This document shows positions 15,125 through 18,601 of a stretch of DNA of 64,000 bases, piece after piece; the first letter of the stretch is position 1; every line of letters begins with the position of its first letter. Origin of the DNA: Portibacter marinus (lineage in GTDB: Bacteria > Bacteroidota > Bacteroidia > Chitinophagales > Saprospiraceae); NCBI RefSeq assembly GCF_021533195.1, contig NZ_JAJNKB010000004.1, positions 310,001-374,000 on the forward strand. The letters run 5' to 3'. The notes under the pieces were generated by a model. That model was not told where the DNA came from and ran no database searches. It saw only the letters and a program-made list of their open reading frames with translations. The position numbers were made by a program, and so were the translations under genes.

Positions 15125-15157
15125 TTTGTGCAATAGGTAGCATTTGTTGTACATTTG
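15125..15157 (+). promoter_or_regulatory. Promoter in front of the repeat/tRNA-like locus A
   Basis: TTTG at 15125-15128 and TACATTTG at 15150-15157 form a Bacteroidota-type promoter with a 21-nt spacer. It is followed by ATATCGAAAGCGAT, which also follows the promoter of the second tRNA-like gene near 18.2 kb. The shared promoter-leader arrangement suggests that both loci descend from one transcribed unit. Motif-based. Confidence 0.6.
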
Positions 15158-15176: not shown

Positions 15177-15746
15177 GGGTGGCGGGATCTTCACCCTTAA
15201 ACATGCAATTTGATCCAATGAAATACTGTGAGGTGATGAAACAGGCAGAACAGACGCAGCCGCTTTCGCGGTCCATTCCTTTAAAGCGCTGTCGCACTTT
15301 ACTTCTCCTGATGTCGAAGATCAGTCTTGGATGTCTCGGGGGTAAGACTGAAAGTTCTGACCACAGGGAAGAAAAATGACGAAGGTCATTTTAGTGAAGG
15401 AACCAAGCGCAGAACCGCTCGGGTGGGTGGCGGGATCTCCACCCTTAAACATACAATTTGATCCAATGAAATACTGTGAGGTGATGAAACAGGCAGAACA
15501 GACGCAGCCGCTTTCGCGGCCCATTCCCTTAAAGCGTTGTCGCACTTTACTTCTCCTGACGTCGAAGATCAGTCTTGGATGTCTCGGGGGTAAGACTGAA
15601 CGTTCTGACCACAGGGAAGAAAAATGACGAAGGTCATTTTAGTGAAGGAACCGAGCGCATAACCGCTCGGGTGGGTGGCGGGATCTCCACCCTTAAACAT
15701 ACAATTTGATCCAATGAAATACTGTGAGGTGATGAAACAGGCAGAC
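15177..15746 (+). repeat. 248-bp direct tandem repeat containing tRNA-like 5' halves
   Basis: Two full units (15181-15428 and 15429-15676) and the beginning of a third (15677 to about 15744) repeat with a period of exactly 248 bp and few differences. Each unit carries GGCGGGATCTYCACCC, then the tRNA-like 5' half CTGTGAGGTGATGAAACAGG (at 15226, 15474 and 15722), a small hairpin CCGCTTTCGCGG, the string TGTCTCGGGGGT also found in the tRNA-like anticodon arm, and a hairpin AAAATGAC-GAAG-GTCATTTT. The third unit diverges after the D arm and runs into the complete tRNA-like gene. ORFs read through this region differ only in the repeat and are not credible genes. Confidence 0.9.
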
Positions 15747-15865
15747 ATGCCCTCCTGTCTCGGGGGTGGAGATCCCACAATAAACTGGTTTTAAAGTTTA
15801 GTTCTACTAAACTTTAAAGCTTAGCTAAGTGCTCCGTGGAGGTTCGAATCCTTCTCTCACAGCCA
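15723..15865 (+). ncRNA. tRNA-like RNA A with 60-nt insertion in the variable arm
   Basis: The sequence folds as a class II tRNA: acceptor TGTGAGG/TCTCACA, a leucine-type D arm (ATG...CAT around GAAACAGGCAGA), anticodon stem CCCTC/GGGGG with loop CTGTCTC (anticodon position GTC at 15757-15759), T arm GGAGG-TTCGAAT-CCTTC, discriminator G, and an encoded CCA at 15863-15865. C at 15722 can extend the acceptor by pairing with the discriminator G. The variable arm keeps the leucine layout TG-stem-loop-stem-CGT, but its loop (15772-15831) is 60 nt and contains a 10-bp hairpin AAAGTTTAGT/ACTAAACTTT. An intrinsic terminator follows directly. It could be a degenerate tRNA, but the second copy shares its core and shows compensatory changes. 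GUC does not fit leucine or serine. Confidence 0.6.
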
Positions 15866-16370
15866 AAACAAAAAGCGATGTTCATTTTCATGGGCATCGC
15901 TTTTTTTATTCTTCTCATTTTAAACTTTAAGTGGCTGTGAGAGCCAGCCGCAGCCACGCGGTTTGCGCGTGGTTCTCTCTCTACAATGCCTCCGGCATCG
16001 TTGCTACGCACCATTCGTTCCCAGCCAAAACAAAAAGCGATGTTCATTTTCATGGGCATCGCTTTTTTTATTCTTCTCATTTTAAACTTTAAGTGGCTGT
16101 GAGAGCCCGCCGCAGCCACGCGGTTTGCGCGTGGTTCTCTCTCTACAATGCCTCCGGCATCGTTGCTACGCACCATTCGTTCCCAGCCAAAACAAAAAGC
16201 GATGTTCATTTTCATGGGCATCGCTTTTTTTATTCTTCTCATTTTAAACTTTAAGTGGCTGTGAGAGCCCGCCGCAGCCACGCGGTTTGCGCGTGGTTCT
16301 CTCTCTACAATGCCTCCGGCATCGTTGCTACGCACCATTCGTTCCCAGCCAAAACAAATAGCGATGTTCA
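15861..16370 (+). repeat. 162-bp direct tandem repeat (three units plus a fragment)
   Basis: Units begin AGCCAAAACAAAAAGCGATG at 15861, 16023, 16185 and (truncated, one change) 16347, a period of exactly 162 bp. Each full unit holds a terminator-like hairpin (AGCGATG...CATCGCT plus T run), the string GGCTGTGAGAG, which is the reverse complement of the tRNA-like 3' end CTCTCACAGCC, a strong hairpin CCACGCG/CGCGTGG, and ATGCC-TCC-GGCAT. The array thus looks like amplification of the sequence just downstream of tRNA-like RNA A. Because 162 is a multiple of three, the minus strand stays open across the array, but I do not regard that reading as a gene. Confidence 0.92.
15869..15907 (+). terminator. 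Intrinsic terminator of tRNA-like RNA A
   Basis: Hairpin AGCGATG...CATCGCT with an inner AT-rich loop, preceded by a run of A and followed by seven T. It begins a few bases after the CCA end of tRNA-like RNA A. It is also the first of the terminators carried by the 162-bp repeat that starts here. Confidence 0.8.
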
Positions 16371-16375
16371 AGGAC

Positions 16376-16858
16376 CTACCTCAAATACCCTGTGTTTTTT
16401 GACACATACATCAACCTACTAATTTTCCACTGATCTCCATCCATTTTCAACAATGTTGTAAAATCAGATATCGAAGTCATGGTATCTCTTCCCACACCAT
16501 TTTCTACAGTACACCATGTTAGTCTTGAGATCCCCTGATAATATGCATGCTGATCACCTCCACCAATTTCGGTCTCTAAAGCTTCGTAATTCAGTATCGG
16601 ATAAGATAAGTCGGTCTTGGGAAACCAAAATTCTCTTACAGCTTCCTTTCCTTGAATCGGCTTACCTTCCCTGTCAGGCATGAACAAGATGATGTCATCA
16701 CTTATCATTCCCAGAACTCTGGATGAATCACCATCCATCCATGCTTGCCTATAATCTCTCATCGTTTGTTCTATATCTTCTGCTTCAAATTTTTTGCTTT
16801 TCGTTGGATAACAGGAAAAAACAATGAGAATCAGTAGGAATGGAGCTATACTTTTCAT
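16376..16858 (-). CDS. DUF4440/SnoaL-like lipoprotein
   Basis: This 160-aa protein has an N-terminal lipoprotein signal (LLILIVFSC, cysteine at about residue 16) and an NTF2-like fold: EQTMRDYRQAWMDGDSSRVLGMISDDIILFMPD is the typical DUF4440 start, and DFTTLLKMDGDQWKISRLMY the typical final strands. The family covers small ligand-binding or isomerase-like proteins; no activity can be assigned. Its stop lies 6 bp from the end of the 162-bp repeat array, so the array has grown right up to this gene. Confidence 0.8.
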   Translation of the reverse strand: MKSIAPFLLILIVFSCYPTKSKKFEAEDIEQTMRDYRQAWMDGDSSRVLGMISDDIILFMPDREGKPIQGKEAVREFWFPKTDLSYPILNYEALETEIGGGDQHAYYQGISRLTWCTVENGVGRDTMTSISDFTTLLKMDGDQWKISRLMYVSKNTGYLR

Positions 16859-16999
16859 CTATCTTATTTTACTTCAAAATAGCAAGTAAACAAGATAGTT
16901 ATGTTAAAAATATCTTAAAATTTCAGCTATGTCTCTGGACATCATTCACATCAAGCAAAAAGAAGTAATTTAGCGGGCTAACAAAATCAAATTTAAAGT

Positions 17000-17533
17000 A
17001 TGAAAAAATTATTAACCGCGGTGCTTGCATTCGCTTTTTTTGCATTCTCTTTGACCCTAAATGCACAAGATGAAAAAGCTGCTCCTTCTCCTTTTTCAAA
17101 AGTAGAACAAAAAGTAGGAACTACTGACTTTACAGTTGAATACTCAAGACCTGGAGTAAAGGATCGGAAGGTATTTGGAGAGTTAGTACCATATGATAAG
17201 AGATGGAGAACAGGAGCTAACGCAGTAACGAAATTGACTATTAACAAAGACATTAAAGTAGAAGGCAAAGAATTGCCTGCAGGTACCTACGCTTTATTCA
17301 CAACACCGGGTACATCTAAGTGGGATGTGCACTTTTTCGAATATGGTGAAGGCTCACCTAATGCATACAATGAAGCGAAACCCAAATTGACCGTTTCAGT
17401 TATGCCTATGAATCTAGGTGATGTTTCTGTAGAAACTTTCTTAATCTTTTTTGATCAATTGAGAGATGAAAGTGGAACTATGATGTTAGCATGGGACAAT
17501 GTAGCAGTTCCAGTTAACCTGATGGTTAAGTAA
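17000..17533 (+). CDS. DUF2911 domain secreted protein
   Basis: This 177-aa protein has a Sec signal peptide (LTAVLAFAFFAFSLTLNAQ) and one DUF2911 domain: VEQKVGTTDFTVEYSRPGVK, then RTGANAVTKLTINKDI and LPAGTYALFTTPGTSKWDV. The family is widespread in Bacteroidota and has no known function; it is predicted to be periplasmic or secreted. A strong intrinsic terminator lies just downstream. It stands between the two tRNA-like loci without obvious connection to them. Confidence 0.88.
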   Translation: MKKLLTAVLAFAFFAFSLTLNAQDEKAAPSPFSKVEQKVGTTDFTVEYSRPGVKDRKVFGELVPYDKRWRTGANAVTKLTINKDIKVEGKELPAGTYALFTTPGTSKWDVHFFEYGEGSPNAYNEAKPKLTVSVMPMNLGDVSVETFLIFFDQLRDESGTMMLAWDNVAVPVNLMVK

Positions 17534-17556
17534 TTCAACAGGAATAAAGATTTTAG

Positions 17557-17582
17557 AAGGCCACCATATGGTGGCCTTTTTA
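17557..17582 (+). terminator. Intrinsic terminator after the DUF2911 gene
   Basis: Perfect 9-bp hairpin AAGGCCACC-ATAT-GGTGGCCTT followed by TTTTTA, 23 nt after the stop codon. Confidence 0.9.
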
Positions 17583-17626
17583 GTTGATGAAACTATTTTA
17601 TTTTAAATTTCATTCATCTTTTCAGA

Positions 17627-18052
17627 ATGGAAAAAGAAGCGAATTATATAATAGAATCCTGTCAGGATGAACTTAGATTTAAGACATCTCGATCTAGTGG
17701 TGCTGGAGGTCAGCATGTCAATAAAGTAGAAACTAAAGTTACCCTTAGGTGGGATATAAAAGCTTCTGCTCAAGTCACAACCGATCAGAAGGCCCAACTC
17801 GTTGATAAAATAGGAAATTACATCAATAAGGAAGGGGTATTAACCATCTCTGATGAATCTACCAGATCACAATTAAAAAATAAAGAAAAGGTCGTTGCTA
17901 AGTGGAGAAATTTAATCAATAAGGCATTTCAGAAAAAGAAGAAAAGAAAAAAGACCAATATCCCAAAATCTGTAAAGAAAGCCAGGTTAAAAGCGAAAAG
18001 AAATAGATCTGAAGTAAAGAAATTGAGACAAAAGCCAGGTTTTGATGGCTGA
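17627..18052 (+). CDS. arfB: Alternative ribosome-rescue factor ArfB (peptidyl-tRNA hydrolase)
   Basis: This 141-aa protein is of the ArfB/YaeJ/ICT1 type. It releases peptides from stalled ribosomes lacking a usable stop codon. The catalytic GGQ motif is in RSSGAGGQHVNKVETKVTL. The C-terminus is a lysine/arginine-rich tail (KKKKRKKTNIPKSVKKARLK onwards) that in this family enters the empty mRNA channel. Length is as expected. It lies 180 nt upstream of the second tRNA-like RNA gene, on the same strand; the adjacency is suggestive but not evidence of a shared function. Confidence 0.92.
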   Translation: MEKEANYIIESCQDELRFKTSRSSGAGGQHVNKVETKVTLRWDIKASAQVTTDQKAQLVDKIGNYINKEGVLTISDESTRSQLKNKEKVVAKWRNLINKAFQKKKKRKKTNIPKSVKKARLKAKRNRSEVKKLRQKPGFDG

Positions 18053-18171
18053 ATGTGATTAGAAATCTTTCAAAACCTCCTTTATTTCATAAATCACTTT
18101 TATAAATTTATCATCAAATCATCTTATTTATTGAAGTATTTGTATATTTTAATCTCTTTTATTGAAATTAC

Positions 18172-18203
18172 TTGCATGTATTGTTAATTTGATTGTATAT
18201 TTG
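18172..18203 (+). promoter_or_regulatory. Promoter of tRNA-like RNA B
   Basis: TTG at 18172-18174 and TATATTTG at 18196-18203, spacer 21 nt. It is followed by CATATCGAAAGCGAT, matching the leader of locus A (ATATCGAAAGCGAT). The RNA body starts about 30 nt downstream. Motif-based. Confidence 0.65.
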
Positions 18204-18232
18204 TCATATCGAAAGCGATCAATCATTAATAC

Positions 18233-18393
18233 TGTGAGGTGATGAAACAGGCAGACATGCCCTCCTGTCTCGGGGGTGAGGAACAAGCCATAAACTTGGT
18301 ATAGTTTTCAGTTTATTCTGAAATGGGATTGACCACCGAAAGTTGTACCGTAGCTAAGCGCCTCGTGGAGGTTCGAATCCTTCTCTCACAGCA
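18233..18393 (+). ncRNA. tRNA-like RNA B with 79-nt insertion in the variable arm
   Basis: This second copy is identical to RNA A from the acceptor through the anticodon arm (anticodon position GTC at 18267-18269) and through the T arm and acceptor 3' strand. The discriminator G is at 18391, followed by CA instead of CCA. The variable-arm stem is AGG (18279-18281) with CCT (18361-18363), where RNA A has GAG with CTC: two of the three pairs changed on both sides. The 79-nt loop shares ATAAACTTGG and TAGCTAAG boxes with RNA A but has a different central hairpin (TTTCAG/CTGAAA). It has its own promoter and an excellent terminator. It is probably transcribed; function is unknown. Confidence 0.62.
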
Positions 18394-18395
18394 AA

Positions 18396-18429
18396 AAAGC
18401 GATGTCCATGAATTTGGACATCGCTTTTT
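18396..18429 (+). terminator. Intrinsic terminator of tRNA-like RNA B
   Basis: Perfect 11-bp stem AGCGATGTCCA/TGGACATCGCT with a 6-nt loop; flanking A and T runs can extend it. It starts a few bases after the RNA 3' end. The lower stem matches that of terminator A while the upper part differs. Confidence 0.9.
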
Positions 18430-18540: not shown

Positions 18541-18601
18541 TCAGCCGCAGACGCTTTCGCGGTCCATTCCTCTAAAGTACTGTCGTACTTCACTTCTCCT
18601 G
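18541..18601 (+). repeat. Degenerate remnant of the 248-bp repeat
   Basis: The stretch containing GACGCTTTCGCGGTCCATTC, then an AAAGTACTG and CTTCACTTCTCCTG string, aligns with the central part of the 248-bp unit at about 15252-15315, with several substitutions and a small rearrangement at its start. It shows that the repeat also accompanies locus B. The rest of 18430-18750 holds nothing else I recognise. Confidence 0.6.

Follow-up and report, generated by a model that had tools for sequence, protein, structure and literature searches.

Candidate aspartate-identity tRNA-like RNAs of Bacteroidota and phages with a second RNA domain in the variable arm

By sequence comparison, we identified a conserved family of structured RNA genes in bacteria and phages that is represented twice in a 64,000-nucleotide stretch of the Portibacter marinus genome (contig NZ_JAJNKB010000004.1, positions 310,001 to 374,000; hereafter the window), where it has no match in Rfam 15. 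Alignment of homologues shows a leucine-type class II tRNA body into whose variable arm another folded RNA domain has been inserted, the whole being maintained under selection. The best reading of the family, which we hold as readily as we doubt it, is that it comprises aspartylated tRNAs that do not decode, that are controlled by an Lrp-family regulator, and that are also carried by phages. The family appears to be undescribed.

Both genes lie on the forward strand, copy 1 at 15723–15863 and copy 2 at 18233–18392, with the ends counted to C74. The original prediction, made from the letters of the window, had placed two class II tRNA-like genes with giant variable arms here; both are present, with their ends refined to 15863 and 18392, and reading of the two copies bears out the leucine-type D arm and the TTCGAAT T arm that it described. 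Each copy forms a cloverleaf with a 7-bp acceptor stem (TGTGAGG/TCTCACA, followed by G73-C74), a 3-bp D stem (ATG/CAT) with a leucine-type loop, a 5-bp anticodon stem with a 7-nucleotide loop (CCCTC-CTGTCTC-GGGGG), and a 5-bp T stem (GGAGG-TTCGAAT-CCTTC). The acceptor domain of the family is of the 7/5 type (12 bp) on a class II body. The variable arm opens as in leucine tRNAs, with TG, a stem (GGAG/CTCC in copy 1, GAGG/CCTC in copy 2) and then GT or CGT, and continues into the second domain. Copy 2 is a long form that carries the conserved core GGRTNGACCAC (GGGATTGACCAC at 18325–18336), while copy 1 is a short form with a single hairpin of 16 bp in place of the core. The anticodon arm of copy 2 spans 18260–18276, with the loop CTGTCTC at 18265–18271 and GTC in the anticodon position at 18267–18269. 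Its giant variable-arm domain (18278–18364) comprises the variable stem, a 4-nucleotide bulge, P0, an ATAAA/CTAA internal loop, P1, P2, and P3.

From the body outwards, the giant arm of the family consists of a variable stem of 4 bp, usually a 4-nucleotide 5' bulge, a 3-bp helix (P0), the internal loop RAYAAA/CTAA, and a closing pair. Beyond this pair the short form has a variable hairpin, and the long form has P1 (6 bp), TA, an optional hairpin P2, P3 with the loop GRTNGACCA, a variable stretch, TG, and P1'. The whole variable region measures roughly 40 to 125 nucleotides.

Covariation supports this structure in both forms. In an alignment of 53 long forms, hand-picked from 76 thinned representatives of 101, 97.1% of cells pair and both sides have changed in 21 of 37 pairs; covariation is 0.426, compared with 0.214 after shuffling and at most 0.141 after sliding, and none of 500 shuffles reached any of the five measures. 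Short forms behave similarly, with 96.9% of cells paired, double changes in 18 of 28 pairs, and covariation of 0.407 against 0.183 shuffled and at most 0.122 slid. The variable stem and P0 covary in 101 long host copies, 70 short host copies, and 125 phage copies, with P0 percentages that lean upwards because the best-pairing box was chosen. The second pair of the variable stem in the 125 phage copies illustrates this variety: U-A in 49, G-C in 35, A-U in 19, C-G in 11, G-U in 10, and U-G in one. One phage subtype has TGAA instead of CTAA (55 of 120 parsed copies) together with an AATAGA-like 5' box, so both internal-loop boxes shift together. Thermodynamic folding is less telling: copy 1 has a z-score of −3.0, and copy 2 one of just −0.65. 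Besides the alignment of 53 sequences, one alignment takes in copies found by blastn with copy 2, and another has 41 hand-picked sequences.

Several other features of the arm were considered. A short reading frame ending in TAR, noticed by eye in the long form, was rejected because it is broken in one phage subtype, in a comparison that left 24 of 177 matches unparsed. Rfam scans of two stretches gave nothing in favour of a ribozyme or intron within the arm. Kissing of the GGUNGACC loop with itself is unsupported, since its N changes with no matching change in the partner. A pairing between the GAC of the long form and the GUC of the same RNA would involve three bases, and it is beyond the reach of covariation because both triplets are nearly invariant.

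Homologues are widespread, and full-length examples with covarying stems occur in many Bacteroidota genomes, which agrees with the earlier suggestion of a selected, structured RNA. A blastn search with copy 2 gave full or partial matches in 31 of 60 genomes, its own included, and an anticodon-arm pattern is present at no fewer than 119 genome loci. This pattern forces TGTCTCG in both its genomic and its viral scans, which were accordingly excluded from the anticodon counts below. Among the matches listed (80 titles) are Chitinophaga, Ferruginibacter, Cyclobacterium, Dyadobacter, Spirosoma, and Saprospiraceae. From 185 copies, with the overlapping loci L003 and L004 left out, we kept 171 distinct ones from 134 loci, of which 101 are long and 70 short. 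At least two distinct copies are found at 31 of the 134 loci, and 11 loci mix the two forms. A covariance model of the long form recovers 41 of 392 genomes of the phylum, again including its own, at 85 bits or more, a cut that we set ourselves; lower-scoring matches were taken as ordinary tRNAs from their length of about 85 nucleotides. Three of the 41 genomes belong to another class (family f67). With the short-form model and a cut of E ≤ 1e-15, matches occur in 73 of 396 class genomes, which represent 19 families and include the P. marinus genome itself. Three of the 76 rows of one table are ordinary or spurious tRNAs.

Some relatives are incomplete. One of the 73 genomes, G125, checked individually, has a 77-nucleotide member of the family without the giant arm and with the anticodon AUC (L461, 1038–1114), perhaps a reduced form. 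A genome of the same genus as P. marinus has two insert-only repeats, corresponding to model positions 58–124, without a tRNA body (L005, 977–1044 and 1295–1362). Another long-form-like copy (L464, 1057–1203) has lost most of its anticodon loop and is possibly decaying.

Searches against known families gave little. ARAGORN made no tRNA call in the window, Rfam 15 gave no match at gathering score across its 64 kb, in keeping with the earlier impression that no described family has this layout, and between 15600 and 18500 no tRNA or tmRNA family matched even at E ≤ 10. The genome as a whole has 34 RF00005 matches (E ≤ 0.1), all outside the window; among the 30 loci that were fetched are an ordinary tRNA-Asp(GUC), which is a separate gene, and three tRNA-Leu, and a normal tmRNA sits on another contig. 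The copy 2 region has no match in INPHARED or PLSDB, nor do two phage copies in INPHARED. A literature search found no description of this RNA family in the portions of text that it returned.

The RNA combines features of several known systems. Its D arm and variable-arm flanks resemble those of the host tRNA-Leu(UAG), and its anticodon loop and G73 resemble those of the host tRNA-Asp; it is a chimera of both that does not keep U33 and purine 37 and bears a giant structured arm. With canonical tRNA (RF00005) it shares the four-arm cloverleaf, the TTCGA of the T arm, and the 7-bp acceptor, yet it matches no Rfam tRNA model. Like tmRNA (RF00023), it is a tRNA-like RNA with a large extra part, but it has an anticodon arm, no recognised tag reading frame, and no RF00023 match in the window. 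The 13-bp acceptor branch and UCA anticodon of tRNA-Sec contrast with its 12 bp and NUC anticodon. Bacterial Y RNA (YrlA) is a non-coding RNA with a tRNA-like module, whereas the family RNA has a complete cloverleaf; the scan of the window with all of Rfam gave no match, and no test was aimed at YrlA.

The anticodon loop points to aspartate. Decoding requires U33 and a purine at position 37. The core aspartate determinants are given in two papers as G73, G34, U35, C36, and C38, with G2-C71, G1-C72, and G10 as bacterial additions (PMC9976931, PMC6523644). We counted these positions in 110 distinct host sequences out of 113 copies from the covariance models, after leaving out two insert-only matches of 92. 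U35 and C36 are each present in 109, C38 in 107, G34 in 103, G73 in 109, and G2-C71 in all 110, compared with U33 in only 90 and a purine at position 37 in only six. Among the phage matches listed, 100 distinct copies from anticodon-blind scans all have GTCYC in a 7-nucleotide loop closed by at least four of five pairs, against 6.5% of the shuffled windows that hold GTCYC. These phage copies have U33 in 87, A33 in seven, C33 in six, and a purine at position 37 in none, with G2-C71 in 100 and G73-C74 in 99. The family carries the core aspartate set and not the decoding loop. The host tRNA-Asp has G2-C71, G73, and the loop CTGTCAC; position 37 is the single difference between this loop and the one in copy 2.

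The chromosomal genes are very probably transcribed from their own Bacteroidota promoters. A −7 element of the form TAnnTTTG lies between −110 and −25 in 126 of the 170 copies that come first in their array. As read from the sequence, copy 2 has a predicted −7 element, TATATTTG, at 18196–18203, and an upstream box, TTGAAATTACTTGCA, at 18162–18176 that overlaps the TTG of the −33 element. When three or fewer mismatches are allowed, 76 of 135 RNA promoters have the corresponding family consensus, TTGAAAWATTTGCA, over the −33 element, whereas none of 137 promoter-like sites of other genes at the same loci has it. The box presumably resembles the operators of Lrp-family proteins.

At 111 of the 195 loci that have a copy, a gene for an Lrp/AsnC-family regulator (Pfam PF01037, PF13404) lies 121–262 bp from the RNA and is divergent from it; at none of the 195 is it placed in any other way. 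The loci are partly redundant and correspond to 103 distinct junctions with the gene and 70 without; 12 have too little flank to judge. The same neighbour is present at all three loci of the other class and in 13 of 20 further regions. In the P. marinus genome the closest Lrp homologue (61% identity) is encoded on another contig. We infer that the −33 box is the operator of this regulator.

Phages carry the RNA as well. The anticodon-arm pattern occurs in 76 viral contigs, and an Lrp gene in none of these 76 stretches; together with two further scans, it yields at least 196 parsed viral loci with 125 or more distinct RNAs. Ten proteins from three of these loci (L244, L255, and L285) were tested, and nine fall into functionally named phage families, for example terminase, PhoH, endolysin, thymidylate synthase, exonuclease, and RNA ligase. 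Across 125 RNA-distinct loci among the matches listed, the RNA is preceded by a gene of 170 amino acids in 41 and followed by the terminase large subunit gene in 39, at a median distance of 416 nucleotides. Eight proteins encoded beside phage copies were compared with PHROGs: three belong to no family, four to families of unknown function, and one to terminase. A scan of 39 viral loci found an ordinary tRNA-Asp in both L277 and L285 and a tmRNA in L285, and some contigs have tRNA arrays. Some phage copies (L342, L344, and similar loci) have a further insert in the D loop, probably a hairpin.

A perfect palindrome of at least six nucleotides follows GACCAC in 108 of the 125 phage copies (shuffles: 32.5 on average, 51 at most). 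When the copies are thinned at 85% similarity, 23 of 30 still have it (shuffle maximum 16), and 19 of the 23 palindromes begin two or three nucleotides past GACCAC. Overall there are 26 different palindromes. Because the palindrome varies in sequence while its self-complementarity is kept, phage copies may well form homodimers through these loops.

We considered whether the family might be an attachment-site remnant of integrative elements. This was rejected because the genes have their own promoters, covary throughout, frequently adjoin an Lrp gene and, in phages, lie inside blocks of genes.

These features are consistent with recognition by aspartyl-tRNA synthetase (AspRS), control by Lrp, and absence of decoding. 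AspRS would recognise and charge the RNA through G73, G34, U35, C36, C38, and G2-C71, and the loss of U33 and of the purine at 37, together with the conserved A-U first pair, would keep it out of decoding. An amino-acid-responsive regulator of the Lrp/AsnC family would control the RNA genes through the palindrome-like −33 box. With the arm as an effector domain, the aspartylated RNA might, speculatively, be a non-ribosomal donor of aspartate or a charge-sensing regulator of aspartate supply, and such a role appears more likely than decoding. Phages would carry the RNA as they carry tRNAs and tmRNA, in versions that homodimerise. In its fullest form, which we put forward tentatively and hold to be less likely than not, this amounts to a dedicated non-decoding aspartyl-tRNA of bacteria and phages that is controlled by Lrp/AsnC proteins and charged by the ordinary AspRS, whose arm is a separate functional domain, whose aspartate serves or signals off the ribosome, and whose phage versions pair through fast-changing palindromic loops.

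Several observations weigh against this interpretation. G1-C72 is absent, with U1-A72 in all 110 host copies and A1-U72 in three of 100 phage copies; only 19 of the 110 host copies have G at position 10 (76 have A and 15 have U); and G34 has been lost in seven (to U, C, or A, one of them with the loop mostly deleted). GUC is also, according to one review, a common anticodon of the allo-tRNAs, which are thought to take serine (PMC7609411). No Lrp gene lies beside the RNA at 72 of the 195 loci, the window included, that have flanking sequence. The box is as frequent without an Lrp gene (42 of 64) as with one (69 of 106), so the link between box and regulator is drawn from neighbourhood alone, and a box-like match also occurs at six of 27 ordinary host tRNA genes. 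Finally, the palindrome shows no excess in host copies (35 of 101, shuffle mean 30.1), and 17 of the 125 phage copies are without it.

An uncharged RNA could present the same pattern of identity elements. It would act as a regulatory sponge that titrates AspRS or a tRNA-modifying enzyme, with the giant arm anchoring another protein or ligand, and the adjacent gene for an amino-acid-type regulator would suit this role. However, a sponge that used the anticodon alone would have no need of G73-C74, the same end as in the host tRNA-Asp, and 109 of 110 host copies retain G73. We regard a sponge as unlikely, at a level that still deserves weight.

Serine charging deserves somewhat more doubt. The RNA would then be a class II tRNA resembling allo-tRNAs, accepting serine from a seryl-tRNA synthetase (SerRS) that relies on the long arm and G73 without regard to the anticodon, and serving in misreading or in a serine pathway. 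In its favour, a long variable arm and G73 are the features that SerRS reads, according to a review that covers allo-tRNAs (PMC7609411), and G73 is present in 109 of 110 host copies. The same review describes the allo-tRNAs of Mukai 2017 as bacterial class II tRNAs with anticodons that fit the body poorly, GUC being among the commonest, notably in the 8/4 type, and some of them as unusable for translation in Escherichia coli (PMC7609411). It assigns allo-tRNAs a 12-bp acceptor domain of the 8/4 or 9/3 type and places them in Clostridia, Proteobacteria, and Acidobacteria (PMC7609411). In contrast, the family RNA is 7/5, occurs in Bacteroidota and phages, and combines a large, structured arm with an anticodon loop in which NUC is nearly fixed. 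Its D arm and variable-arm flanks are of leucine type, and serine charging leaves unexplained why U35, C36, C38 and mostly G34 are kept while position 33 is freer.

We consider it improbable that the RNA is an unusual decoding isoacceptor of tRNA-Asp with an oversized arm. Its anticodon is GUC, U33 persists in most copies (90 of 110 from hosts, 87 of 100 from phages), and tRNAs are often carried by phages, with tRNA arrays on some of these contigs. However, 20 of the 110 host sequences lack U33, just six of the 110 have a purine at position 37, and none of the 100 phage copies has one; an ordinary tRNA-Asp already exists in the host genome and on the phage contigs L277 and L285; and the linkage to Lrp does not suit a decoding tRNA. 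A packaging RNA of phages borrowed by their hosts and multimerising by loop pairing, modelled on the pRNA of phi29, would suit the palindromic loops and the place upstream of the terminase gene at 39 of 125 viral loci, but 86 of the 125 have no terminase neighbour in the stretch examined, chromosomal copies adjoin an Lrp gene, and neither the tRNA body nor the aspartate identity set would be accounted for, which makes it a most doubtful candidate.

The surroundings of the two genes in the window contain further elements. Predicted intrinsic terminators follow copy 1 (15870–15907, forward strand) and copy 2 (18394–18429, forward strand). Upstream of copy 1, on the same strand, are two 248-nucleotide tandem units (15177–15672), each containing the first 23 or so nucleotides of the RNA as a partial 5' copy (15227–15249 and 15475–15497). 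The units are 96% alike and consist of a leader and the RNA start followed by CAGCCGCTTTCGCGGTCCATTCC and further sequence, with a relative, seen by eye, near 18544. They push the predicted promoter, with its −33 TTTG at 15125–15128 and −7 element TACATTTG at 15150–15157 (both forward strand), to 566 nucleotides from copy 1. Three overlapping 202-nucleotide repeats spaced 162 nucleotides apart occupy 15845–16370 and include the copy 1 terminator and an inverted acceptor end of the RNA. Between the two copies, a gene at 17627–18052 encodes a protein with an RF-1 domain, ArfB-like by eye.

The Lrp/AsnC neighbour at other loci, the aspartate-type loop with G73, the two forms, and the phage copies with their palindromes all lay beyond the view of the original prediction. 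The RNA family, for which a scan of the window with Rfam 15 gave no match, extends through much of one class, into another class of the phylum, and into many uncultivated phages. The family shows that a class II variable arm is able to host a whole RNA domain. The prediction of aspartate identity is sharp and directly testable. Should the RNA prove to be charged without taking part in decoding, it would represent a natural aminoacyl-tRNA reserved for use away from codons and tied to an amino-acid-responsive regulator.

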